A stretch of 64,000 nucleotides of DNA from Parafrankia sp. EUN1f (lineage in GTDB: Bacteria; Actinomycetota; Actinomycetes; Frankiales; Frankiaceae). Shown here one piece after another: positions 31,753 through 42,759 of the stretch (positions are counted from its first letter, which is position 1; every line of letters starts with the position of its first letter). Below the pieces are notes generated by a model that had not been told where the DNA came from, did no database searches, and was given only the letters and a program-made list of their open reading frames with translations. Where the stretch lies: the NCBI RefSeq assembly GCF_000177675.1, contig NZ_ADGX01000009.1, positions 1 through 64,000 on the forward strand, read 5' to 3'. Both the position numbers and the translations under genes were made by a program.

Positions 31753-32169
31753 ATGCGCATGCGCTCAGCCATCACCCACAACCCGCCTCAGCCGGACGTC
31801 GAACCCGACGACTTCGCATGGTGGGTACACGAGATCGACCCGTTCCACCGGCTCCCTCCGACCGAGCGCACGGCTCGTGCCTGGGCCGCCCGACAGGGAT
31901 GGCTCACGGATATCGAGGCAGCCGCCAGCCGGCACCGACTCGCCGGTTCCAGGCGGGCCTCGGATCGGACGGCGGGACGGCCACCACCCGTCCCGCCGCG
32001 CCGTGGGCAAGACCGGCCGCCAGCCGGCTCGTCCCGCCCACGGACGGGACGAGCCGCGCTTGCGCCCGGGCTCCGGACCACCCGGTTCGGGCCATGGGCG
32101 GCCCACCGGCCCGGTATCGCGCGAACGGCTTACTCCGGGGGACTGCCGGCCTCCTCCAGCCGGTCGTAG
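31753..32169 (+). CDS. Small protein of unknown function, WWVHEIDPFHRL family copy 2, extended
   Basis: 138 residues. The first 67 align with the protein at 30336: PPQPD..PDDFAWWVHEIDPFHRL, then AARxxWLxDxEAAAxRxRLAxSR. Where copy 1 stops, this one continues for about 70 low-complexity Arg/Pro/Gly residues and overlaps the 3' end of the HxlR gene by 40 bp. The extension looks like read-through after loss of the original stop. The ATG at 31753 has GGAG 8-12 bases upstream. Function unknown. Confidence 0.65.
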   Translation: MRMRSAITHNPPQPDVEPDDFAWWVHEIDPFHRLPPTERTARAWAARQGWLTDIEAAASRHRLAGSRRASDRTAGRPPPVPPRRGQDRPPAGSSRPRTGRAALAPGLRTTRFGPWAAHRPGIARTAYSGGLPASSSRS

Positions 32170-32546
32170 TCGCCCTGGGAGCGGAAGACCGTGGCCGCGT
32201 TGCCGCGTACCCACTGCAGGATCTGGCGGAGCGGCTCGGCGGCGTCGGCGCCCAGCGGTGTCAGGGCGTATGTCACGCTCGGCGGGGCCGTCGGCGCCAC
32301 CACCCGAGTCAGCAGCCCGTCCCGGGTGAGGGTGCGCAGCGTCTGGGACAGCATCTTCTCGCTGACGCCGTCGACCAGCGTGCGCAGCTCGTAGAACCGC
32401 AGTGGGCCGTCCTGGAGTGCCACCAGGACGAGGAGGCCCCAGCGGCTGGTGAGGTGGTTGAGCACGACACGCCCGGGACAGTCTCTGTTGAACACGTCAC
32501 ACGGATCGTCGATCGTTGGGCTGTTGACCTGCGAACCAACCTCCAC
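32130..32546 (-). CDS. HxlR-family transcriptional regulator
   Basis: 138-residue winged-helix regulator. The family Cys is in NRDCPGRVVLNHLTSRWGLLVLVAL; recognition helix region LRTLVDGVSEKMLSQTLRTLTRDGLL and wing VTYALTPLG follow. HxlR proteins often sense quinones or reactive electrophiles through the N-terminal Cys. The GTG at 32546 has no clear ribosome site and may be leaderless. Divergent from the DsbA/FrnE-like gene with a palindrome between them, so it probably controls that gene and itself. Confidence 0.92.
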   Translation of the reverse strand: MEVGSQVNSPTIDDPCDVFNRDCPGRVVLNHLTSRWGLLVLVALQDGPLRFYELRTLVDGVSEKMLSQTLRTLTRDGLLTRVVAPTAPPSVTYALTPLGADAAEPLRQILQWVRGNAATVFRSQGDYDRLEEAGSPPE

Positions 32547-32556
32547 GCCAGGAGCT

Positions 32557-32568
32557 TACCTCAAGGTA
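32557..32568. promoter_or_regulatory. Candidate HxlR operator
   Basis: TACCTCAAGGTA is a 5-bp-arm inverted repeat with a 2-base centre in the 52-bp gap between the divergent HxlR and FrnE-like genes. Its position just before the start codons fits a repressor site. Confidence 0.6.
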
Positions 32569-32598
32569 TGGGCTTTCTAAAAGTTAGCCCGGGTCCTA

Positions 32599-33318
32599 GT
32601 GTCCGCTCCCACGGAGACACCAGGAGTAACCGTCGGCCCACCTCCCGCGCGGGAGGTGGAGCCGCTCACCGTGGACATCTGGTCGGACTTCGTCTGCGGG
32701 CACTGCTACGTCGGCCAGCACCGGATCTCCACCGCGCTCGCGGGACTGGGCGCCTCGGGCTCCTTGCGGGTGCGGTGGCGCAGCTTCGAGCTCGACCCGC
32801 GGCCCGCTGATCAGCGACCGACCGGGGACCTGTACGACTACCTCGCGCGATTCAACGGCAGCCGGGAGGCCGGTCGGGCGGCCATGCAACGCATCAGCGT
32901 CACCGCGGCCGCCGAAGGGCTGGAGTTCCACCCGGACATCGCCCGCCCCGGGAACACCGCGAACGCCCATCGGCTGGTCCATCTGGCCGCCGAGTACGGA
33001 CTTCAGCGCACACTGGTCGACCGGCTGTACCGGGCGTACTGGGTCGAGGGCAGGCCGATCGCCGACCCGGACACGCTCGTCGCGCTGGCCCTGGAGGTCG
33101 GGCTACCGGCCGAGCGGGCCAGCGACGTCCTCTCGGGATCGGAGTTCGCCGAGGACGTCGCCGCCGATGAGCAGATGGCCGCGGCCTTCGGTGTGGGCGG
33201 GGTGCCGACCATCGTCGCGGGAGGCCGCTGGCGGATCGCCGGCACGGAGCCGGTCGCGGTCCTGTGCGGCATCCTGGAGCAGATCCTCGCCGACCGGGCC
33301 CGCGAAGGCGCGCGGTGA
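32599..33318 (+). CDS. DsbA/FrnE-family thioredoxin-fold oxidoreductase
   Basis: 239-residue cytosolic protein of the DsbA/FrnE group. The redox motif is CGHC at residues 33-36 (FrnE usually has CPWC); RWRSFELDPR, NTANAHRLVHLAAEYGLQ and the cis-Pro in GVGGVPTIV are typical. Members take part in thiol redox or isomerisation in polyketide and quinone metabolism. The GTG at 32599 has no ribosome site and lies 31 bp after the HxlR palindrome, so the mRNA is probably leaderless. Its stop overlaps an MFS remnant. Confidence 0.9.
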   Translation: MSAPTETPGVTVGPPPAREVEPLTVDIWSDFVCGHCYVGQHRISTALAGLGASGSLRVRWRSFELDPRPADQRPTGDLYDYLARFNGSREAGRAAMQRISVTAAAEGLEFHPDIARPGNTANAHRLVHLAAEYGLQRTLVDRLYRAYWVEGRPIADPDTLVALALEVGLPAERASDVLSGSEFAEDVAADEQMAAAFGVGGVPTIVAGGRWRIAGTEPVAVLCGILEQILADRAREGAR

Positions 33319-33688
33319 CCGCGGGCCCGGCCGCGGCCACACCGGCCGCCACCATCCCCGAGGCACCGTCAGCGAGCCCGTCGAAGGTGCTCGCCGCGCT
33401 GGTCGCCGCGGTCTTCGGATATGCCCTGATGCAGACCCTGCTCATCCCCGCGCTGGGGCTCCTGCAGCGGCGGCCCTGATCGCGTCCGGCACCTCGCGCA
33501 CCGGGGTGACGAGCGGGTCGACCTTCACCGTTGCCTTCTGGCTCGCCGCGGGGGCCGGAGCTCTCGGCACCCTGACCGCGCTGGGCACATCGGCCCGGCG
33601 CGGCCGTCCACAGACGCCGGAGCAGCCGATGGAACGGGCTCTGGCCGAGGGATCCCTTCGGCCAGATGCCAGCGCGGCCGATATCTGA
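33315..33688 (+). pseudogene. MFS transporter remnant (N- and C-terminal ends only)
   Basis: A GTG overlapping the FrnE-like stop begins a frame that gives one N-terminal MFS membrane segment (KVLAALVAAVFGYALMQTLLIPALGLLQRR) and stops at 33479. From about 33470 another frame encodes what looks like the last MFS helices (LIASGTSRTG, then FTVAFWLAAGAGALGTLTAL) and a hydrophilic tail to 33688. Around 400 residues of the middle are missing. The join lies within CTCCTGCAGCGGCGGCCCTG. The gene was probably an HxlR-controlled efflux pump in an operon with the FrnE-like gene. It is not functional as a transporter. Confidence 0.7.
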
Positions 33689-33897
33689 CTGACCTGCCGG
33701 CGTTGCGCCTGCTGGTACTCGTCTGCAGTGTCCGCCAGACCGGGACCGTACTTGAAAACTCTGTGCGGCGGCCTTCGGCGATGCTACTGTTCCGATCTGG
33801 AATTCTCGGACTGATGGTGCCGACAGAAGTCCCGCCAGGTGCATCCGCCGGCGGTGCTGGCCCGTTCCGTGCGGAAGGTTCCAAGGGGGGATTCATC

Positions 33898-34776
33898 ATG
33901 GTCGCCGATGTTCATATTCCCGTCCTCGACGACGTCGACCCAGGCACGGCGCTTACGGCTGTCATCGAGCACGGTGCGGCGTTCATCAAAAGGCCAGGAA
34001 CGACCCTGTTCGACTTCAGGGAGTTCACCGAGGCGCTCATGGTCCCGATGGTTCACCACGCAACCAACACCATCGAACGTGACCCGGTGGGCGCGGATCC
34101 AAGCACGTCCACCGTCAACAAGGGTATGGACGCGATTCCGCTGCACCGGGAGGGCTCCTACGCGCCGGGCTGCCCGGACCTGCTCGTCCTCTACTGCGAG
34201 CGCCCCGCCGCCGCCGGTGGTGAGACCGTCCTGTGCGACGGGGCGGAACTGCTGCGGCGCCTCGACGAGTCGACCCGTGCGTTTGTCTCCGACCTGGACC
34301 TTTACTGGAGCTGGGAGGCTACGCCGGCACGCTGGCAGCAGACCTTCGGCGTGACCGACGTGGCGCTGGCCCGGGTGGCGCTGGCTCGGGTCGGCGGTTT
34401 GCTGCGCCCCTACGAGCGGCTTGACGGCGACTTCCAGGGGGATGTGCTCCACGGCCGGTTCCGCACAAAGGCGGTGATACCGTCAAACGGCGGTGTTCCG
34501 TCCTTCTGCAACTCGCTGATGATCTATGCCTATCGGCAGAAAAGCGACTATTACGCCAGGGACAGCTTCCGTGTCGCGCTGGCGGACGGAAGCCCTTTCC
34601 CGGCTGATCTCCTCGCCGAGATCCGCGAGGTCGCCGAGACGGTCTCCGTGCGCGTCTCCTGGGAACCCGGGAACCTCGCGGTCTTCGACAACGCCCGTTT
34701 CATGCACGGCCGAACAGGGTTCGATGACACCGGTCGCCGGGTCCTCATCAGGATGGGTCATCTCAGGAAACGGTGA
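33898..34776 (+). CDS. TauD/TfdA-like Fe(II)/2-oxoglutarate dioxygenase
   Basis: 292-residue cytosolic oxygenase. The facial triad appears as His83-x-Glu85 (LHREGSY) and His270 in FMHGR, with the 2-oxoglutarate Arg in RRVLIRMG. Glu in place of Asp in HxD is seen in the clavaminate-synthase/SyrP-like branch that acts on amino acids in natural-product pathways. The ATG at 33898 has AAGGGGGG 6-9 bases upstream. First gene of a colinear block ending with murL-murD2; a 209-bp gap before it should hold the promoter. Confidence 0.88.
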   Translation: MVADVHIPVLDDVDPGTALTAVIEHGAAFIKRPGTTLFDFREFTEALMVPMVHHATNTIERDPVGADPSTSTVNKGMDAIPLHREGSYAPGCPDLLVLYCERPAAAGGETVLCDGAELLRRLDESTRAFVSDLDLYWSWEATPARWQQTFGVTDVALARVALARVGGLLRPYERLDGDFQGDVLHGRFRTKAVIPSNGGVPSFCNSLMIYAYRQKSDYYARDSFRVALADGSPFPADLLAEIREVAETVSVRVSWEPGNLAVFDNARFMHGRTGFDDTGRRVLIRMGHLRKR

Positions 34777-34846
34777 TCCTTTTTCGTCTCACGGTGCATG
34801 GCCAGGGATGCCGCAGGTCCGAGTCGACGACGGAAAAGGATCGGTC

Positions 34847-35413
34847 ATGATTGAAATCTTCGACGGGAGTGACGCGGCCCGCCTCGCCACGGTCCTCTCG
34901 CTTCGGAGGGCCGCATTCTCCGGCAGCCGGCGCGATCCGGCCCACCTCGACGCCTGGTCGTCGGACACGTACGACCGCGACTGCCGGCACATCGTGATGA
35001 CGGACGACACCGGCGCTCCGGTCGCCGCGGTGCGGGTCGTCCTCGAAGGCCGCTGGCCGCTGCAGGACCGCTATGACGGGCCCCTGGAGCAGACGAGGGG
35101 CGCGGAGTTCGGTCGGCTCTGCGTGCTGCGGCGGGAGACCGCCGACGCCAGGAACCTGTACGAGCTGATGGTCAACGCCGCCCGGCACTGCGTCGCGTTA
35201 CAACGGCCGATGATGTACGGCCTGACCATCGCACCCTTCTGGCGAGCCCTGGCCCGGGCGGGCGTTCCCCTGACGCCGCTCTCCGGCCCGATCCAGGCCT
35301 ACGGCGAGGAGGAGAACGTCATCCTCTTCGACGCCCATGATCTGATCGCCTTCTACGACGGCTGGCGCTCGCACCGGGCCACGCCGGACCACGGCGGACA
35401 CGGTGACCGGTGA
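34847..35413 (+). CDS. GNAT-fold acyltransferase resembling autoinducer synthases
   Basis: 188 residues. The layout MIEIFDGSDAARLATVLSLRRAAFSG, WSSDTYDRDCRHIVMTDDTGAPVAAVRVV, then AEFGRLCVLRRE resembles LuxI/FeeM-type N-acyl amino acid or acyl-homoserine lactone synthases, in which the Glu/Arg-containing strand precedes the acyl-donor site. Similarity is only by pattern. The ATG at 34847 has AAAGGA 7 bases upstream; its stop overlaps the amidase start as GTGA. It may load an acyl group on the amino acid-like product of the block (inference). Confidence 0.7.
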   Translation: MIEIFDGSDAARLATVLSLRRAAFSGSRRDPAHLDAWSSDTYDRDCRHIVMTDDTGAPVAAVRVVLEGRWPLQDRYDGPLEQTRGAEFGRLCVLRRETADARNLYELMVNAARHCVALQRPMMYGLTIAPFWRALARAGVPLTPLSGPIQAYGEEENVILFDAHDLIAFYDGWRSHRATPDHGGHGDR

Positions 35414-36909
35414 GCGGGCCTGAGCGCCCCGGGACGATCCCGGCCCGCGTTCTCGGGGAGCGGGCGATGCGGAAGCTGGCGGAGAACGCCACCCCCGGCA
35501 GCCTGCAGGAGACGGCCCGACTGCTGCGCACGGGGGAGCTCTCCCCACGGCAGGTCCTCGACGACTGCCACCGGCGCGCGACCCAGGCGAACGCGGCGCT
35601 GAACTGCTACGTCACCATCGGCGCGGTGCAGGCCCTGGAACAGGCGCTGGAGCAGGCGCTATCCCGCACCCGCACCCGCACGCCGGACGATCGGCCCCTG
35701 CTGTGGGGAATCCCGACCTCCGTCAAGGACCTGACCCCCACCGAGGGAATGCGCACGACCTTCGCGTCCCGTGCGTTCGCGGAGCACGTACCGCCGCACG
35801 ACGCGCCGGTGGTCGGACGGATGAAGGCTGCCGGCACGGTCGTGTTCGCGAAGACGAGCACGTCCGAGTTCGGCATCCTCCCGGTCACCGAGCCCGAGCT
35901 GAACGGTATCTGCCGAAATCCCTGGGATCACACGCTCAGCGCCGGCGGGTCGAGCGGAGGCGCCGCCGCGAGTGTCGCGGCCGGGGTCACCGCCGTCGCG
36001 CACGGAAGTGACGGGGCGGGATCGCTGCGCATCCCCGCCTCGTGCTGCGGGGTCTTCGCGGTCATGCCGGGGCCGGGCCGCCTTCCCGCGACCCCGCGCC
36101 CGACCCTGGGCGCGGGCGCCCAGGACGGTGTTGTCAGCCGCACGGTCGCGGACGCGATCTACTGGCTGACCGCGTTGGGTGCGCTCGACCTCGACGAGGT
36201 GGCCCTGGCGGTGTCCGAGGATCCGTGGCCGGCGGTCGACCACCGGGTTGTGATGACGAACGTCCCGCCGGTCGACTGCGAGGTCGACCCGGCGTGCACC
36301 GCCGCCGCCGTGGCGGCCGCGGACCTGCTGGCAGGGGCGGGGTGCCGCGTCGAGGAGGTGTCACCGGACTGGTCGGCCGACGCGGTTCTCGACGACCTGA
36401 TGCTGGTGCGCAGCACGGTTCCGGTGGCGTACGGGGATCCTCGGCCCGAGCTGCTGGACGCGACGACGCGGGCGGGCCTCGAGCTTGCCGGCCGGACCAG
36501 CGCGCTCGACCTGCACCGGGCCATCGCACGGCTCGGCGCATACACCCAGCGGGCCAGCCGCCTGCTCGCCGAAGGCGACGTCCTGCTGACACCGACCGTC
36601 GCGAGGCCGTCGGTCCCGCACGGCTGGGTCACCAGCCCCGCACATCCGGCGGACGTCTTCCGACGCGCGGCGCACTTCGCGCCGTTCGCCGCGTTCGCCA
36701 ACCTCGCGGGCCTGTGCGCGGTCTCGCTGCCGCTGGGCGCAGCGGGTGCAGCGGGTGCACCCGGTGCACCGGGTGTCGGTGGACCCGTTCCGGTCGGGGT
36801 CCAGCTCATGGCACGGCCGCGAGACCTGGCGGGCCTGCTCGGGCTGGCCCTGCGGCTGGAACGGCTCGCCCCCTGGGCGGACCGGGTGCCGCCCGTCTGG
36901 GTCGGCTGA
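35410..36909 (+). CDS. Amidase-signature-family hydrolase
   Basis: 499-residue amidase. The catalytic triad is Lys106 (SVKD), cis-Ser181 (in GGSSGG) and Ser205 (DGAGSLRIPAS), with the spacing of the family. It hydrolyses an amide bond; substrates of this family range from simple amides to peptide amides and acyl-amino acids. An Ala/Gly/Pro repeat (AAGAAGAPGAPGVGG) near residue 447 is encoded by a short tandem repeat. The GTG start overlaps the GNAT stop (GTGA). Translational coupling suggests that acyltransferase and amidase act in one pathway, for example adding and removing an acyl group. Confidence 0.92.
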   Translation: MSGPERPGTIPARVLGERAMRKLAENATPGSLQETARLLRTGELSPRQVLDDCHRRATQANAALNCYVTIGAVQALEQALEQALSRTRTRTPDDRPLLWGIPTSVKDLTPTEGMRTTFASRAFAEHVPPHDAPVVGRMKAAGTVVFAKTSTSEFGILPVTEPELNGICRNPWDHTLSAGGSSGGAAASVAAGVTAVAHGSDGAGSLRIPASCCGVFAVMPGPGRLPATPRPTLGAGAQDGVVSRTVADAIYWLTALGALDLDEVALAVSEDPWPAVDHRVVMTNVPPVDCEVDPACTAAAVAAADLLAGAGCRVEEVSPDWSADAVLDDLMLVRSTVPVAYGDPRPELLDATTRAGLELAGRTSALDLHRAIARLGAYTQRASRLLAEGDVLLTPTVARPSVPHGWVTSPAHPADVFRRAAHFAPFAAFANLAGLCAVSLPLGAAGAAGAPGAPGVGGPVPVGVQLMARPRDLAGLLGLALRLERLAPWADRVPPVWVG

Positions 36910-36952
36910 CCAGGCACCGTCATACCCGAGCCGCCACACAGGAGCGCTCCCC

Positions 36953-38326
36953 TTGACAACCTCCGAAACGCTCAGGCCGATCTCGGCGCCTGCCAGCCCC
37001 CGCTTCTACAACGCCGCATCGCTCGACGGCCTGCTCGAGCGGGCCGGCCTCGCCGGGCCCGACCGCCTGATGGCCCGCGCCGTCGCGGCTGTGCTGCCGT
37101 TCCGCGTCAACGACTACGTGGTCGACGCGCTCATCGACTGGGATGCGGCCCCCGACGACCCGATCTACCGGCTGGTCTTCCCGCAGCCGGACATGCTGCC
37201 CGCCGAACAGGTGGCGCCGATCGCCCAGCTCCTGGCGCGCGGCGCGCCCACGCGTGAGGTTCAGGCCGCCGCGGCGGCGGTGCGTGCGGCGCTCAATCCG
37301 CATCCGGCGGGCCAGCGGGAGCTCAACGTCCCGGAGCTCGCCGGCACCCGCCTGGACGGGCTCCAGCACAAGTATCCCGAGACCGTCCTGTACTTCCCCG
37401 CCCACGGGCAGACCTGCCACGCGTACTGCACCTACTGTTTCCGGTGGGCGCAGTTCGTCCAGGAGCCGCACCTGCGGATGGCCTCGCGCAACGTCGACGA
37501 CCTCGTGACGTACGTGCGTGCGCATCCCGAGGTCACCGACGTCCTGATCACCGGTGGTGACCCGATGGTGATGTCGGCCGAGATGCTGGCGCGGTGCGTT
37601 CTGCCGCTGCTCGACGAACCCGGGCTCGGGCATCTGCAGTCGATCCGCATCGGCACGAAGTCGTTGTCGTACTGGCCCGCGCGGTTCGTCACGGATCCGG
37701 GGGCCGACGACACCCTGCGGCTGTTCGAACGAGTGGTGGCCAGCGGGCGCAGCCTCGCCCTGATGGCCCACTACTCACACCCGCGTGAGCTGGAGACCGA
37801 CGTCGCCGAGCACGCGGTGCGCCGGGTGCTCTCGACCGGGGCGGTGATCCGGACCCAGGGCCCGGTCATCCGCTCCGTGAACGACGACGCCGGGGCCTGG
37901 GCGGCCATGTGGCAGCGCCAGGTGCGGCTCGGCATGGTTCCGTACTACATGTTCGTGGAGCGTGACACCGGGCCGCGCGGCTACTTCGAGGTCGCGCTGC
38001 TGCGCGCCTACGAGATCTTCAGCGCCGCCTACCGCTCCGTGTCCGGTCTGGCACGCACCGTCCGTGGGCCGGTGATGTCCGCCACGCCGGGAAAGGTCGT
38101 GGTCGACGGTGTTCACACCGTGGGTGCGGAGAAGTACATCGCGCTGAGATTCCTGCAATGCCGTGATCCGGAGCTGGTGAACCGGCCGTTTCTGGCCCGG
38201 TATGATCCGCGGGCGTGCTGGTGGGACGACCTGCGCCCGCCGGTTGGCGCGGCGCCCGGAGTGCCCTGGTCCTCCTGGGGTGTGGACCACGGCCCGGATA
38301 TTCCCCTGGCGCGGGAAGAAAACTGA
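36953..38326 (+). CDS. Lysine-2,3-aminomutase-like radical SAM protein (KamA family)
   Basis: 457 residues. The radical SAM cluster is Cys155, Cys159, Cys162 (CHAYCTYC, CxxxCxxC). KamA-type features are TGGDPMVM, MAHYSHPRELE, QGPVIRSVND and PYYMFVERDTGPRGYF. The PLP-Lys motif PGGGGK of true lysine 2,3-aminomutase is reduced to ATPGK, so PLP binding is plausible but the substrate may differ from lysine. Members convert an alpha-amino acid to a beta-amino acid. The TTG at 36953 has AGGAG 9-10 bases upstream. Same-strand block from the dioxygenase to murD2. Confidence 0.88.
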   Translation: MTTSETLRPISAPASPRFYNAASLDGLLERAGLAGPDRLMARAVAAVLPFRVNDYVVDALIDWDAAPDDPIYRLVFPQPDMLPAEQVAPIAQLLARGAPTREVQAAAAAVRAALNPHPAGQRELNVPELAGTRLDGLQHKYPETVLYFPAHGQTCHAYCTYCFRWAQFVQEPHLRMASRNVDDLVTYVRAHPEVTDVLITGGDPMVMSAEMLARCVLPLLDEPGLGHLQSIRIGTKSLSYWPARFVTDPGADDTLRLFERVVASGRSLALMAHYSHPRELETDVAEHAVRRVLSTGAVIRTQGPVIRSVNDDAGAWAAMWQRQVRLGMVPYYMFVERDTGPRGYFEVALLRAYEIFSAAYRSVSGLARTVRGPVMSATPGKVVVDGVHTVGAEKYIALRFLQCRDPELVNRPFLARYDPRACWWDDLRPPVGAAPGVPWSSWGVDHGPDIPLAREEN

Positions 38327-38404
38327 CCGCGGGTCCGGCCGGCTCGGGTGCGCTCCGTGCTCACTGTGGCTCACTGGTAGGATTGGCCTCCAGTGCTGGC
38401 ACGG

Positions 38405-38431
38405 TGATGAGTTGCATGATGATAAGTTGCA
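38405..38431 (+). repeat. Direct repeat in the murL leader
   Basis: TGATGAGTTGCA (38405-38416) and TGATAAGTTGCA (38420-38431) lie 15 bp apart, 31 bp before the murL start. One-sided, direct and spaced by 1.5 helical turns, they may be a regulator site. The 135-bp gap also holds a -10-like TAGGAT at 38381. Confidence 0.45.
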
Positions 38432-38461
38432 CGGTCGAGCGCGGGAGGAAATTCGAGCACG

Positions 38462-39886
38462 ATGTTCGATCCGGCTGGATTCAGCGAATTCTCCTATGAG
38501 GGCTATTCCTTCGATTCGACCGGGGAGACCTTTCGCGCGTTCTACTCACTGCTGGGGCGGGCTGGGAGCATCGAGTTCGTCGAGACGATCCGCCTCCCGA
38601 ACGGGAACCAGGGTCGGCCCGCTGGAGTGCCGTCGGCGCGGACGGCCCGGCTGCTGGCACTGGCGAGTGGCCTGAGCTACTACAAGGCGGCCGCTCCCGG
38701 CACGGTCCGGGTGGGGTTCGGTCTCACCGACGGAGAGCACACGTTCCTGTCGGAGCTGATCAGGAACGGGCTCGGCGAATTCGCGTTCCGTAACCAGCTG
38801 CCCGGCGCCCTCACGCCCCAGATCACGGGCAAGCGCCTGGACGAGGTCCCCGACGAGATCACGGGCGCGGGCGGCGGCGGAGCTGCTGGCGGCGGTAACG
38901 GAGCTGGCGGCGGTGCGGTGGCCGCGGCACCGGCCGCGCCGCTTGTTCCGGTCGGCGGCGGCAAGGACTCCGTGGTCACGATCGAGTCGCTGAAGGCCGC
39001 GGGCTTCGGCCCGGTGCTCTTCTCCGTCAACGCGTTCGCGCCGATCACCCGCTGCGCGCGGGTCAGCGGGCAGCCACTGGTCTCCGCCCAGAGGTCGATC
39101 GACCCCGCCCTGCTCGAGGCCAACCGGCAGGGGGCTCACAACGGCCATGTGCCCGTCACCGCGGTCGTCAGCCTGATCGCCCTGATGGCGGCGGAGCGCC
39201 TGGGTCTCGGTCCGGTGGTCATGTCCAACGAGCGGTCGGCGGAATACGGAAACCTCTCCTGGAACGGCCACACCATCAATCATCAGTGGTCGAAGAGCAT
39301 TCATTTCGAGGCATTGCTCCGCTCGGCGCTGGAGAGTTCCGGGGGAGCTGCTTCCGGAGGAACCGGTGCCGACGCGTACTTCTCGCTGCTTCGCCCGCTC
39401 TCGGAGCTGGAGATCGCCCGCCGGTTCGCCGGGTTGCCGGCCTATTTCGAGGCTTTCACCAGCTGTAACCGCAGCTTCCGGATCGACGAGTCCGAACGGG
39501 CGTCGTCCTGGTGCCGTGAATGCCCGAAGTGCCAGTTCGTCTTCCTGGTGCTCGCCCCCTTCATGTCGACCGGGCGGCTGACGGAGATCTTCGGGGGAAA
39601 CATGCTCGACGACCCGGCGAACCTCGACGGCTACCTGGAGATCCTGGGTCTTCGCGGGCACAAGCCCTTCGAATGCGTCGGCGAGTACGACGAGGCGCTG
39701 GTCGCCCTGGCCCTGCTGGGGCGCGATTCCGGGTGGGCCCGGGCCCGGCTGGTGGGGCCGCTCACTGACGAGATGAACGCCCAGGGCCAGGCCCCGGCCC
39801 CGGGGCTCGACGCTGCGTTGCTCGAGCCTTCGGCCACCCACTTCATCCCGCAGCCCTTCCGCGAGGCACTCGATGCGCTTGGCTGA
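38462..39886 (+). CDS. murL: MurL-type glycopeptidyl-glutamate epimerase
   Basis: 474-residue cytosolic enzyme. In this family MurL converts the terminal L-Glu of UDP-MurNAc-L-Ala-L-Glu to D-Glu using ATP. The PP-loop-like motif GGGKDS is at residues 165-170, followed by VVTIESLKAAGF. The domain also has SNERSAEYGNLSWNGHTINHQWSKS and a Cys group in SSWCRECPKCQF. A Gly-rich insert (GAGGGGAAGGGNGAGGGA) precedes the PP-loop. The ATG at 38462 follows GGGAGGAAA. It overlaps murD2 by 14 bp, the pair being diagnostic for the MurD2-MurL route. The assignment is by motif pattern and context. Confidence 0.88.
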   Translation: MFDPAGFSEFSYEGYSFDSTGETFRAFYSLLGRAGSIEFVETIRLPNGNQGRPAGVPSARTARLLALASGLSYYKAAAPGTVRVGFGLTDGEHTFLSELIRNGLGEFAFRNQLPGALTPQITGKRLDEVPDEITGAGGGGAAGGGNGAGGGAVAAAPAAPLVPVGGGKDSVVTIESLKAAGFGPVLFSVNAFAPITRCARVSGQPLVSAQRSIDPALLEANRQGAHNGHVPVTAVVSLIALMAAERLGLGPVVMSNERSAEYGNLSWNGHTINHQWSKSIHFEALLRSALESSGGAASGGTGADAYFSLLRPLSELEIARRFAGLPAYFEAFTSCNRSFRIDESERASSWCRECPKCQFVFLVLAPFMSTGRLTEIFGGNMLDDPANLDGYLEILGLRGHKPFECVGEYDEALVALALLGRDSGWARARLVGPLTDEMNAQGQAPAPGLDAALLEPSATHFIPQPFREALDALG

Positions 39887-41273
39887 GATCGCCACCAGGC
39901 GCGTCGGGATCTGGGGTCTCGGCCTGGAGGGGCGCGCCGTCCTCGGCGCCGTCGCGGCCTCGCCCGCCGGGGTGGTCGTCGTGGATGAGCGGGAGGCGTC
40001 CGCGCACGTGGCCGAGACTCTCCCCGGGGTCGAGTACGACTGGGGCGCCGGCAGCCTGGAGCGGCTGCTCGACTGCGACCTCGTCGTGGTGAGCCCGGGG
40101 ATACCGAGGACCCACCCGTTCCTGGAGACGCTGCGGGCGAAGGAGATCCACCTGACCTCGGGCTCCGCGGTCTGGCTCGAGTCCGAGGCCGAGCGGGCCG
40201 TCGGGGTCACCGGCACCAAGGGCAAGAGCACCACGGCGTCCCTCATCCACGCCATCCTGAACCAGCCGACCGGCACCGGCACCGACGCCGACGCCGGCAC
40301 CGGCACCGACGCGGGCGCGGGCGCCGTGCTCGCCGGGAACATCGGCCTGCCGCTGCTGGCCGTGCCGCCGGGCCCGGCCGCGGTGGTCGCGGAGCTGTCG
40401 AGCTACCAGTGCTTCTGGATCACCCGGTCGCCACGGGTGGCCGTCGTCACCAACCTCTACGAGGAGCACCTTCCCTGGCACGGCTCACTGGAGCGGTACT
40501 GGCAGGACAAGGCGCGGATCGCGGTGCACGGCGCCGCGGCGCTGGTCTGCGACGAGCCGACCCTGGCGAAGCTGCTCTCGGTCGAGCCGCGGGTCCGCGG
40601 GCTGCCCACCCTGTTGGCCGCCACGTCCGGCGAGGACATCGTGGACCGCGACGGCACCCGCCTGCTGACGGTGCGCGAGCTGCCGCCGCACCTGCGGGCC
40701 GGCCATCTGGTCTCCAGCGTGCGACTGGCGGTGCTGGCCGCCGGCGCGGCCCTCGAAACGCCGCTGTCGCCGGACGCCGTGCGCCGAGGCCTCGCCGGGC
40801 ATGCGCCCCTCCCACACCGGCTGGAGACGATCAGCCACGGCGGCGGGCTCGTCTGGGTTGACGACACGTTGTCCACCACGGCGAACAGTGTCATCGCCGC
40901 GGTCGAGGCGTTCGACGCCGAGCACACGGTCCTCATCGTCGGCGGCCAGGACCGCGGCATCTCCTACCAGCCGCTCAACGACTTCCTGCTGGGCAGCCCC
41001 CGCAGGGTGGACGTCATCGCGATCCCGTCGAACGGTCCCGCGGTGGTCGCGGAGTTCGGCGAGCGCCACCCGGATCGGGTCCACCCCGCCGCCGGGCTGC
41101 GGGAAGCGGTAGCCCTGGCGGCCCGCCTGGGTTCGCCGGGCTGCCACGTGATTCTCTCGCCGGGCGCGCCGAGCTACGACCGGTACGCGAACTACGCCGA
41201 GAAGTCCGCGGAGTTCCACGACGCGGTGACCCGGCTCTACCCCCCGACCCCCCAGATCGCCCAGATCGCCTGA
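39873..41273 (+). CDS. murD2: MurD2-type UDP-MurNAc-L-Ala--L-Glu ligase
   Basis: 466-residue Mur ligase. The N-terminal UDP-binding domain has VGIWGLGLEGR, the ATP P-loop is GTKGKST at 114-120, and the central domain has ELSSYQCFW and NLYEEHLPWHGSLERYWQDKARI. The C-terminal domain has HRLE, DDTLSTTANSVIAAV and LIVGGQDRG, all close to MurD. MurD2 adds L-Glu rather than D-Glu, and MurL then epimerises it. The pairing with murL supports MurD2 over housekeeping MurD. A Thr-Asp-Ala-Gly repeat (TGTDADAGTGTDAGAGA) near 133-150 is encoded by a hexamer repeat. The ATG at 39873 lies inside murL with GAGG upstream. Confidence 0.9.
   Translation: MRLAEIATRRVGIWGLGLEGRAVLGAVAASPAGVVVVDEREASAHVAETLPGVEYDWGAGSLERLLDCDLVVVSPGIPRTHPFLETLRAKEIHLTSGSAVWLESEAERAVGVTGTKGKSTTASLIHAILNQPTGTGTDADAGTGTDAGAGAVLAGNIGLPLLAVPPGPAAVVAELSSYQCFWITRSPRVAVVTNLYEEHLPWHGSLERYWQDKARIAVHGAAALVCDEPTLAKLLSVEPRVRGLPTLLAATSGEDIVDRDGTRLLTVRELPPHLRAGHLVSSVRLAVLAAGAALETPLSPDAVRRGLAGHAPLPHRLETISHGGGLVWVDDTLSTTANSVIAAVEAFDAEHTVLIVGGQDRGISYQPLNDFLLGSPRRVDVIAIPSNGPAVVAEFGERHPDRVHPAAGLREAVALAARLGSPGCHVILSPGAPSYDRYANYAEKSAEFHDAVTRLYPPTPQIAQIA
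40265..40322 (+). repeat. GC-rich coding repeat in murD2
   Basis: Imperfect copies of ACCGGCACCGACGCC encode the Thr-Gly-Thr-Asp-Ala insert beside the P-loop. It is in frame and absent from the MurD core, so it is probably a surface loop. Confidence 0.7.
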
Positions 41274-41377
41274 CGGCCCGCGCTACCCGAGGGGTGGCCG
41301 TTGATGCCGAGCACCGAAAAGTACTGGCGATTCAACCCTAATAGGGGCAAATAGCGCGCGGAGTCGCTTGACGGCTC

Positions 41378-41429
41378 GCAAGAAGTGAGGATGTCGGCTG
41401 TTGCCGCAGCCAATATCCTCACTTCTTGC
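41378..41429. repeat. 52-nt structured inverted repeat, copy 1
   Basis: The outer arms GCAAGAAGTGAGGAT (41378-41392) and its perfect complement (41415-41429) enclose a 22-base loop. The loop itself contains a 5-bp stem GGCTG/CAGCC around the hexaloop TTGCCG, with 3-base internal loops. A second copy at 61233-61284 keeps the same geometry with compensating changes. It lies in a 295-bp gap between convergent murD2 and acyl-CoA dehydrogenase genes. It could be a bidirectional terminator, a REP/MITE-like element or a small RNA; the sequence alone does not decide. Confidence 0.85.
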
Positions 41430-41568
41430 TCGGTGACAACGACGGCAGCGGCGGCAGCGGCGGAAGCCCGAAGCCCGAAGCCCGAAGCTCGGGATTCTGC
41501 GACGGCTGCTGGACGACGAACATCTCCAGCTCGTCGGACGGGCTGGGCCCCCGGCGGCGCGCCGAGCG

Positions 41569-42759
41569 CTAGTGCGGAGCTCCCGGCAGGTGCACCAGCG
41601 ATGCCAGCAGGGCGCGATGGGCACCCGGGGTGCCGAACGCGATCTGGTCGGCCTTGGCCTTCTTCAGATACAGGTGCGCCGGGTACTCCCAGGTCATGCC
41701 GATGCCGCCGTGCAGCTGCACCGCCTCCTCCGCGGCGACGACCGCGAGGTCGCCGCAGAACGCCGCCGCGACGCTGGTGGCCACGGCCAGATCCGGGTCG
41801 CCGGACGCCAGTGCCGCGGCGGCGTAGCGGGCGGCCGCGGCCGCGGACTCGACGCCGGCGTAGAGGTCGGCCAGCCGGTGCTTGAGTGCCTGGAAGCCAC
41901 CGACCACCCGGCCGAACTGCCGGCGTGTCCTGAGGTACTTCACGGTCTCGTCCAGGCACCAGCTCGCCACGCCGAGCTGCTCGGAGGCGAGCAGGGCGGT
42001 GCCCGCGGTCAGCCCGGCGCGAATCGCCCGCTCGGCGGCTCCGGGGTCGTCCGGGTCGTCGAGCACTGGTGTGGCCTCGACGTCGAGCAGGTGCACATCG
42101 GCGAGCTGGCGGGTCATGTCGAACGAGACCACGGGCCGCCGATCCACCAGGGCCGCGTCGACGGCGTAGAGCGTGACGCGTCCGTCCCGGTAAGCCGGCA
42201 CGAGCAGCAGGTCCGCCTCGAGCGCGCCGGCCACGGTGGTCACCGTGCCGGTGAGCGTGTGCGGCCCGACCACGTCGACAGCGGCCAGCCGAGCACCCGG
42301 CGCCTCCGCGCCCGACGCCTCCGCACCCGGCGCCTCCGCGCCCGACGCCGCCGTGAACGGTGCCGCCGTGAACGGTACGACCAGCACAGCGGTCCGCTCA
42401 CCGGCCGCGAGTGACGCCGTGAGCGTGGCCGCGAGATCGGAACCGGCCGCCAGCAGCACCGTCGTCGCGACGACCGCGCTGGTCAGGAAGGGGACCGGTG
42501 CCGCCGCGCGGCCGAGCTCCTCCAGCACGACGGCGGCTTCCCGGGCCGAGGCCCCGGCGCCGCCCCGGTCCTCGGGAACGAGCAGCCCCGCCAGGCCGAG
42601 ATCGACAGCCAGGGCCTGCCACAGCGGGTCGACGAGCGTGCGGTCGCCGTCGTACACGGCGATGACCGCCGCCGGCGGGCAACGATCCGCGAGCAGGTCG
42701 CGCACGGTCGAGCGCAGGTCTTCCTCGACCTCGGAGTAGAGCAGATCGAGATCGGTCAC
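41569..42759 (-). CDS. Acyl-CoA dehydrogenase (third of three)
   Basis: 396-residue FAD-dependent enzyme that introduces an alpha,beta double bond in an acyl-CoA. The N-terminal helical domain, middle beta domain and C-terminal helices (YLRTRRQFGRVVGGFQALKHRLADL, then QLHGGIGMTWEYPAHLYLKKA) are recognisable. The FAD motif of the middle domain is weak, and a repetitive insert GAEAPGAEASGAEAPGA replaces part of it. Enzymes of this shape often act as heterodimer partners of a catalytic ACAD in steroid or side-chain degradation. The stop is at 41569; its ATG overlaps the preceding gene's stop by 4 bp. Confidence 0.9.
   Translation of the reverse strand: MTDLDLLYSEVEEDLRSTVRDLLADRCPPAAVIAVYDGDRTLVDPLWQALAVDLGLAGLLVPEDRGGAGASAREAAVVLEELGRAAAPVPFLTSAVVATTVLLAAGSDLAATLTASLAAGERTAVLVVPFTAAPFTAASGAEAPGAEASGAEAPGARLAAVDVVGPHTLTGTVTTVAGALEADLLLVPAYRDGRVTLYAVDAALVDRRPVVSFDMTRQLADVHLLDVEATPVLDDPDDPGAAERAIRAGLTAGTALLASEQLGVASWCLDETVKYLRTRRQFGRVVGGFQALKHRLADLYAGVESAAAAARYAAAALASGDPDLAVATSVAAAFCGDLAVVAAEEAVQLHGGIGMTWEYPAHLYLKKAKADQIAFGTPGAHRALLASLVHLPGAPH

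Follow-up and report, generated by a model that had tools for sequence, protein, structure and literature searches.

The closest described relative of the locus considered here is the MurD2-MurL route to D-glutamate, which is represented in Xanthomonas oryzae by XOO_1320/XOO_1319 and has in vitro confirmation for Micromonospora sp. and Salinispora tropica, according to a review whose genus list contains no Frankia-type genus (PMC8788868). A pair of genes of this type, murL and murD2, lies in a 64,000-nucleotide stretch of DNA from Parafrankia sp. EUN1f (here, the window) on contig C388 of a 9.35-Mb genome of 396 contigs (G000). As in the known route, the two genes of the window are adjacent and overlap, and their products carry the MurD2 specificity residues and the conserved positions of MurL; unlike that route, the pair is found in a genome with a decayed murI and an intact murD, and four extra genes precede it. 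Taken jointly, it is quite probable that murL-murD2 is a working D-glutamate route, that it was gained as a block with its companions, that murI decayed, and that the upstream genes form a small-molecule cassette. In the mechanism envisaged, MurD2 would add L-Glu and MurL would then invert it, providing the D-glutamate route to peptidoglycan in use in the window lineage. The pair and its four companions probably entered together, as a block, before the window genome and a sister species diverged; the pair would have made MurI dispensable there, leaving murI free from selection to decay in place. Gene content, selection, the decay of murI, and the retention of murD are direct observations from sequence, whereas enzyme activities, a reliance of the cell wall on the pair, and a pathway formed by the four genes are inferred.

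The product of murL (38462..39886, + strand) matches a single family model, NF041275 (360.6 bits, 8.9e-108, model positions 33-445 of 447). Its gene overlaps by 14 base pairs (bp) with murD2 (39873..41273, + strand; 466 amino acids), predicted to encode an L-Glu-adding MurD-type ligase, whose product scores above the TIGR01087 cut-off of 211.95 (249 bits, 9.8e-74). Of 57 near-invariant positions, which show identity of 95% or more across 27 other MurL proteins (from 27 of the 35 non-sister genomes with MurL), the window MurL retains 56; for MurD2 the corresponding figure is 44 of 47. Four positions set MurD2 apart from Escherichia coli MurD, in which they are Asp182, Lys348, Ala414, and Leu416 according to the review (PMC8788868); in the window protein they are Glu198, Arg361, Pro433, and Tyr435. 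Across 27 other MurD2 proteins, Arg occupies the second of these positions in all 27, Pro the third in 20, and Phe or Tyr the fourth in 23; because the first is Asp in 23 and Glu in only 4, Glu at this specificity position is not universal. The two genes are commonly found together, murD2 being present in 26 of the 28 phylum loci where tblastn located murL. The conserved MurL positions and the MurD2 specificity residues bear out the claim of a first-pass annotation that a murL-murD2 bypass is present. A quite different role, in which the two enzymes have been repurposed to build and epimerize a peptide natural product and not peptidoglycan, would fit the biosynthetic-type genes alongside them. 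Yet the conservation of the MurL positions and of the MurD substrate and catalytic residues (Asp38, Asn156, Lys213), together with a decay of murI that implies a cell-wall role, makes such repurposing very improbable.

The gene that the pair would have rendered dispensable can still be read. An orthologous murI, flanked by the same gene order as in the congeners G017 and G018, persists both in G000 and in the sister species, G019, of the same genus. In both genomes the first Cys, which we take to be the catalytic one, is replaced by Gly so that the ACN(S/T)AS motif reads AGNSAG, and the C-terminal part is altered; the second motif reads LGCTRYP for LGCTHYP in G000 and is intact in G019. Because the reading frame is still open, murI in both block-bearing genomes is decayed, not deleted. 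The ratio of non-synonymous to synonymous substitution (dN/dS, by NG86) for murI is 0.78 between G000 and G019 over 239 codons (14.5 non-synonymous and 7.5 synonymous changes), compared with 0.03-0.05 in all five pairs computed among congeners lacking MurL and 0.20-0.29 between the two groups. As murI has decayed in both genomes and no other PF01177 protein was found in G019, murL-murD2 is probably housekeeping now. The first-pass annotation had proposed self-resistance for the pair and had asked whether a housekeeping murD and murI exist elsewhere in the genome. A canonical murD is indeed intact there, but murI is present only as the decayed gene, and with the normal pathway seemingly broken at this point a role of the pair as a spare is not supported. 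D-Amino-acid transaminase was also considered as a source of D-Glu and rejected, with none of 35 genomes above the cut-off and weaker aminotransferase matches in all 35.

The distribution of MurL across the family gives these observations a broader setting, with the restriction that the genomes are related and that few independent events therefore stand behind the counts. MurL was matched in 10 of the 35 family genomes. All 25 without it have MurI (24 above the cut-off and one, G034, with two pieces that lie on separate contigs), and the MurI motifs are intact in all 23 of the MurL-less genomes in which both were readable. Among the ten genomes with MurL, five give no MurI match, G025 gives a match of 33 bits, the G027 gene is broken across frames, the decayed gene is that of G000 and G019, and G032 has a full-length murI whose product is above the cut-off with both Cys kept and ACN changed to ACA. 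This last MurI may still be functional. In G032 and G027 murD is a C-terminal remnant directly after mraY (G032:C61, L178 9911-10150; G027:C95, L181 4346-4651), and these two genomes represent a second lineage in which the replacement is under way with its steps ordered differently. In each of the six other MurL genomes the murD2 linked to murL gives the one MurD-type match of about 199-260 bits, and the next among the matches listed is below 100 bits. In a midpoint-rooted tree of 31 MurL rows, the window and sister proteins group with that of G238 (97/95), and a 19-row group (100/100) holds the other eight family MurL proteins; since the window pair falls outside that group, at least two acquisitions of MurL in the family are likely.

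The replacement of MurI by this route has probably occurred at least two times in the family, in different order. In the window lineage murI has decayed and murD stays, while in the other lineage murD is a remnant and one of the two genomes still has a full-length murI. What has been replaced is an essential step, the supply of D-Glu for peptidoglycan, with the fossil gene still readable. As MurI is a drug target, natural lineages without it are of direct interest.

Several observations weigh against murL-murD2 as a complete and settled replacement. The canonical murD of G000 lies within the dcw cluster on contig C355, and its product has Asp and Lys, by eye, at the first two of the positions that distinguish MurD2. 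The dN/dS of the murD core is 0.20 between G000 and G019, 0.14-0.21 within the set of four other congeners, and 0.20-0.22 across the two groups, the G000-G019 value rising to 0.39 once the N-terminal extension of the open reading frame is counted. An intact murD under normal constraint is not predicted by a pure takeover, and murD needs D-Glu; its retention could possibly be explained by a racemase of another family, by recycled D-Glu, or by a non-catalytic role. The window MurL, like all ten family MurL proteins, scores below the NF041275 cut-off of 700, and the elevated murI rate reflects few changes between two close genomes. G032, with both MurL and a full-length MurI, shows that MurL is not always accompanied by a dead MurI. 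The search for sources of D-Glu covered PF01177 proteins and D-amino-acid transaminases, and G000 holds a second gene of the Asp/Glu racemase family on contig C100 (L112; 4.3 kb, 61.9% GC), a contig that is perhaps assembly contamination. The PF01177 protein of this contig was rejected as a normal MurI, being of aspartate-racemase type by eye, encoded on a short contig of low GC, and absent from G019.

Relatives of the pair were also seen on other replicons. Three mobilizable Pseudonocardia plasmids encode a relative of MurL, as long as MurL and with 36-38% identity to it, that is annotated as a hypothetical protein (L257 13530-14924, L258 13530-14930, L259 13530-14939). No MurD2 was found in 29 kb around these genes, and no Pseudonocardia plasmid is among the 14 plasmid records that match MurD2. 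In Xanthomonas sacchari R1 a murL-murD pair lies on a 508-kb replicon (L260 9554-12326), close to a gene for a bifunctional aspartate kinase/diaminopimelate decarboxylase.

The four genes that precede murL in the window encode a TauD/TfdA-type Fe(II)/2-oxoglutarate dioxygenase (33898..34776, + strand; 292 amino acids, ATG start), a GNAT-like acyltransferase (34847..35413, + strand; 188 amino acids, ATG start), an amidase-signature hydrolase (35410..36909, + strand; 499 amino acids, GTG start), and a KamA-like radical S-adenosylmethionine enzyme with a PLP (pyridoxal 5'-phosphate)-lysine motif (36953..38326, + strand; 457 amino acids, TTG start). The six + strand reading frames were confirmed at the coordinates, and with the families, first given for them. 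Successive genes are spaced by 70 bp, a 4-bp overlap (acyltransferase/amidase), 43 bp, a 135-bp gap (kamA/murL), and the overlap of murL with murD2, and no terminator-like site was found on the + strand in 33600-41600. All six genes occur in identical order in G019, at 92-97% protein identity, with the KamA of G019 terminating about 3 residues sooner. The values of dN/dS between the two species lie between 0.17 and 0.34 (dioxygenase 0.22, acyltransferase 0.23, amidase 0.27, kamA 0.17, murL 0.23, murD2 0.34), so that purifying selection acts on all six. The initial description of six same-strand, close or overlapping genes is in this way upheld by an order kept in the sister species and by constraint on every member.

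Beyond the two species the block has not been seen. In four other congeners (G017, G018, G020, G021) MurL and the acyltransferase have no match and KamA has none save one 54% copy in G017; for the dioxygenase and amidase, a DNA-similarity search only, of 40 candidates per genome, gave short pieces among the matches listed. Acquisition of the entire block before G000 and G019 diverged is probable, the alternative being loss from the other congeners. The four upstream genes were not found near MurL in the eight other MurL-bearing family genomes (10-20 kb each), nor in 27 further genomes that match MurL in a phylum sample of 396, for which flanks of about 1.5 kb (9-20 kb for five) were covered and among which one, G290, is a weak match. 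The expectation that the six genes would co-occur elsewhere consequently holds for the sister species and for no other MurL genome examined.

This restricted distribution bears directly on the simplest alternative, in which murL-murD2 is a plain housekeeping replacement of murI, as elsewhere, with no relation to the four genes upstream, which are simply neighbors. Their absence from every other MurL locus inspected and the 135-bp gap between kamA and murL both favor this explanation, as do GC contents of 65.5% for the dioxygenase and 68.6% for murL versus 74.5% for the amidase (70.8% for the window overall), which suggest mixed origins. The genes nonetheless stay together in the sister species, are jointly missing from the four congeners as far as searched, and share one strand without a terminator-like site between them. 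Chance neighborhood is accordingly a serious contender, to which we give somewhat less than even weight.

In the favored explanation, the upstream genes would constitute a lineage-specific small-molecule cassette, composed of a KamA-like enzyme that lacks Asp293, an amino-acid-type hydroxylase, an acyltransferase, and an amidase. The KamA-like enzyme can be compared with lysine 2,3-aminomutase (KamA; Protein Data Bank (PDB) entry 2a5h), with which it shares the CxxxCxxC, GGD, and PLP-lysine motifs. Unlike that enzyme, it has Arg at the position of Asp293 in a phmmer alignment to 2a5h, and it matches six KamA-type NCBIfam models, each with a score under the cut-off (for TIGR00238, 116.8 bits versus 199.2). 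The label first given to it is weakened by these scores, with the cluster and PLP-lysine motifs nevertheless kept. Among 83 aligned relatives, the three Cys are kept in all 83 and the PLP lysine in 82, and the Asp293 position is Arg in 81 and Asp in 2. The alignment to 2a5h stops at residue 314, short of Asp330, a position that, counted back by eye from the PLP lysine, is Val in the window enzyme and Ser in 80 of the 83 relatives. Asp293 and Asp330 of lysine 2,3-aminomutase are presumed here to bind the side chain of lysine. Because Arg replaces Asp293, a beta-amino acid other than beta-lysine is possible, which leaves room for the beta-amino-acid product proposed at first, although neither product nor target can be named from sequence. 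A search for glutamate 2,3-aminomutase found nothing, and any resemblance of the KamA-like enzyme to it would be conjectural.

The subfamily to which this enzyme belongs (CHAYCTYCFRWAQF; Arg at the Asp293 position) is conserved in many actinomycetes and in Myxococcus (L022-L101), with no link to the other genes of the window. Two conserved genes, plsX- and argS-like by eye, lie near the KamA-like relatives in 59 and 66 of 80 loci, respectively. KamA was rejected as a marker for the pathway, as the other five genes are absent from the DNA fetched (up to 10 kb each side) around the best 80 of at least 558 relatives.

The remaining companions vary in how well they are placed. The dioxygenase matches TauD (PF02668, 4.2e-30), and its HxE motif is His83-Arg-Glu85 with His270 as the distal His, by eye. 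Its nearest solved relative is the clavaminate-synthase-like At3g21360 (4.2e-11), and TauD-type plasmid matches of 25-29% are among those listed (20 of 78 records). The amidase (PF01425, 4.1e-71) has the Lys/Ser/Ser amidase-signature motifs by eye, and its nearest solved relative is 6-aminohexanoate-cyclic-dimer hydrolase (5e-37). The acyltransferase had initially been described as autoinducer-synthase-like, a label weakly supported by a match to Acetyltransf_5 of 20.6 bits, under the cut-off of 22.4. It has no NCBIfam match, no plasmid match, and no credible PDB relative, a predicted structure model of pLDDT 44 is unusable, and its relatives were found in only one of 396 phylum genomes (the window's own) and two of 393 class genomes (window and sister). 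In AblA-AblB, which form the N-acetyl-beta-lysine pathway, a KamA-type enzyme is likewise combined with a GNAT-type acyltransferase in one operon; unlike that system, the window has an acyltransferase outside the NCBIfam models and a KamA-like enzyme without Asp293.

The juxtaposition of an Fe/2-oxoglutarate dioxygenase and an amidase with peptidoglycan enzymes also raises the prospect that the stem peptide, or the Glu within it, is what the four genes modify, for example by hydroxylating the Glu at position 2; murL-murD2 would then provide the substrate. In some actinobacteria the residue at this position is 3-hydroxyglutamate (no supporting paper was found). As such a modification offers no obvious place for a KamA-type enzyme or an acyltransferase, we judge it improbable.

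Genes that bypass the target of a toxic product are a recognized class of self-resistance determinant in antibiotic clusters, and the window locus resembles them in placing an alternative to an essential step alongside biosynthetic-type genes. It differs from them in that the bypassed racemase has decayed, so that the alternative is no spare, and in that no conserved cluster was seen in other genera. In an explanation of this kind, the four genes would make a glutamate-like antimetabolite that blocks MurI or the use of D-Glu, such as a beta- or other amino acid bearing a hydroxyl and/or N-acyl group, perhaps carried in the form of an N-acyl prodrug that the amidase releases; murL-murD2, kept as the bypass, would have become essential later as murI decayed. 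Co-inheritance of the same-strand block, the absence of both MurL and the acyltransferase from the four congeners, companion enzymes of natural-product type, and the replacement by Arg of the lysine enzyme's Asp293 are all consistent with this, and a product directed against MurI would fit the loss of murI with retention of murD. The block, however, is found only in two close species, and in the DNA retrieved around the best 80 of at least 558 KamA-like relatives none of the other five genes appears. It is also without an exporter, only an apparent exporter remnant lying upstream, and is interrupted by the 135-bp gap before murL. Moreover, a toxin is not needed to account for the loss of MurI, as other genomes of the family have MurL and have lost MurI with no such genes nearby. 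Self-resistance is for these reasons rather unlikely. Slightly less likely still is its more specific form, a resistance bypass turned essential, in which the cassette would make a new glutamate-like inhibitor of MurI, the protective murL-murD2 would have been inherited along with it, and the producer, having lost its racemase, would now be committed to that pair. If that were true, the inhibitor's target would have left its mark in the decayed murI, and a MurI inhibitor from the four-gene cassette would have its target readable from the genome. In the open-licence literature, no paper among the matches listed concerns murL-murD2 with a biosynthetic cluster, MurL in Frankia, or an adjoining murI pseudogene.

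The sequence upstream of the block differs between the two species. At 32130-33318 the window genome carries genes for an HxlR-type regulator and a DsbA-like protein, where the sister-genome site has only short pieces, and these two genes were rejected as members of the cluster since this stretch is otherwise missing there. Directly upstream of the dioxygenase gene, at 33319-33688, are start and end pieces that by eye resemble an internally deleted membrane protein of drug-exporter type.

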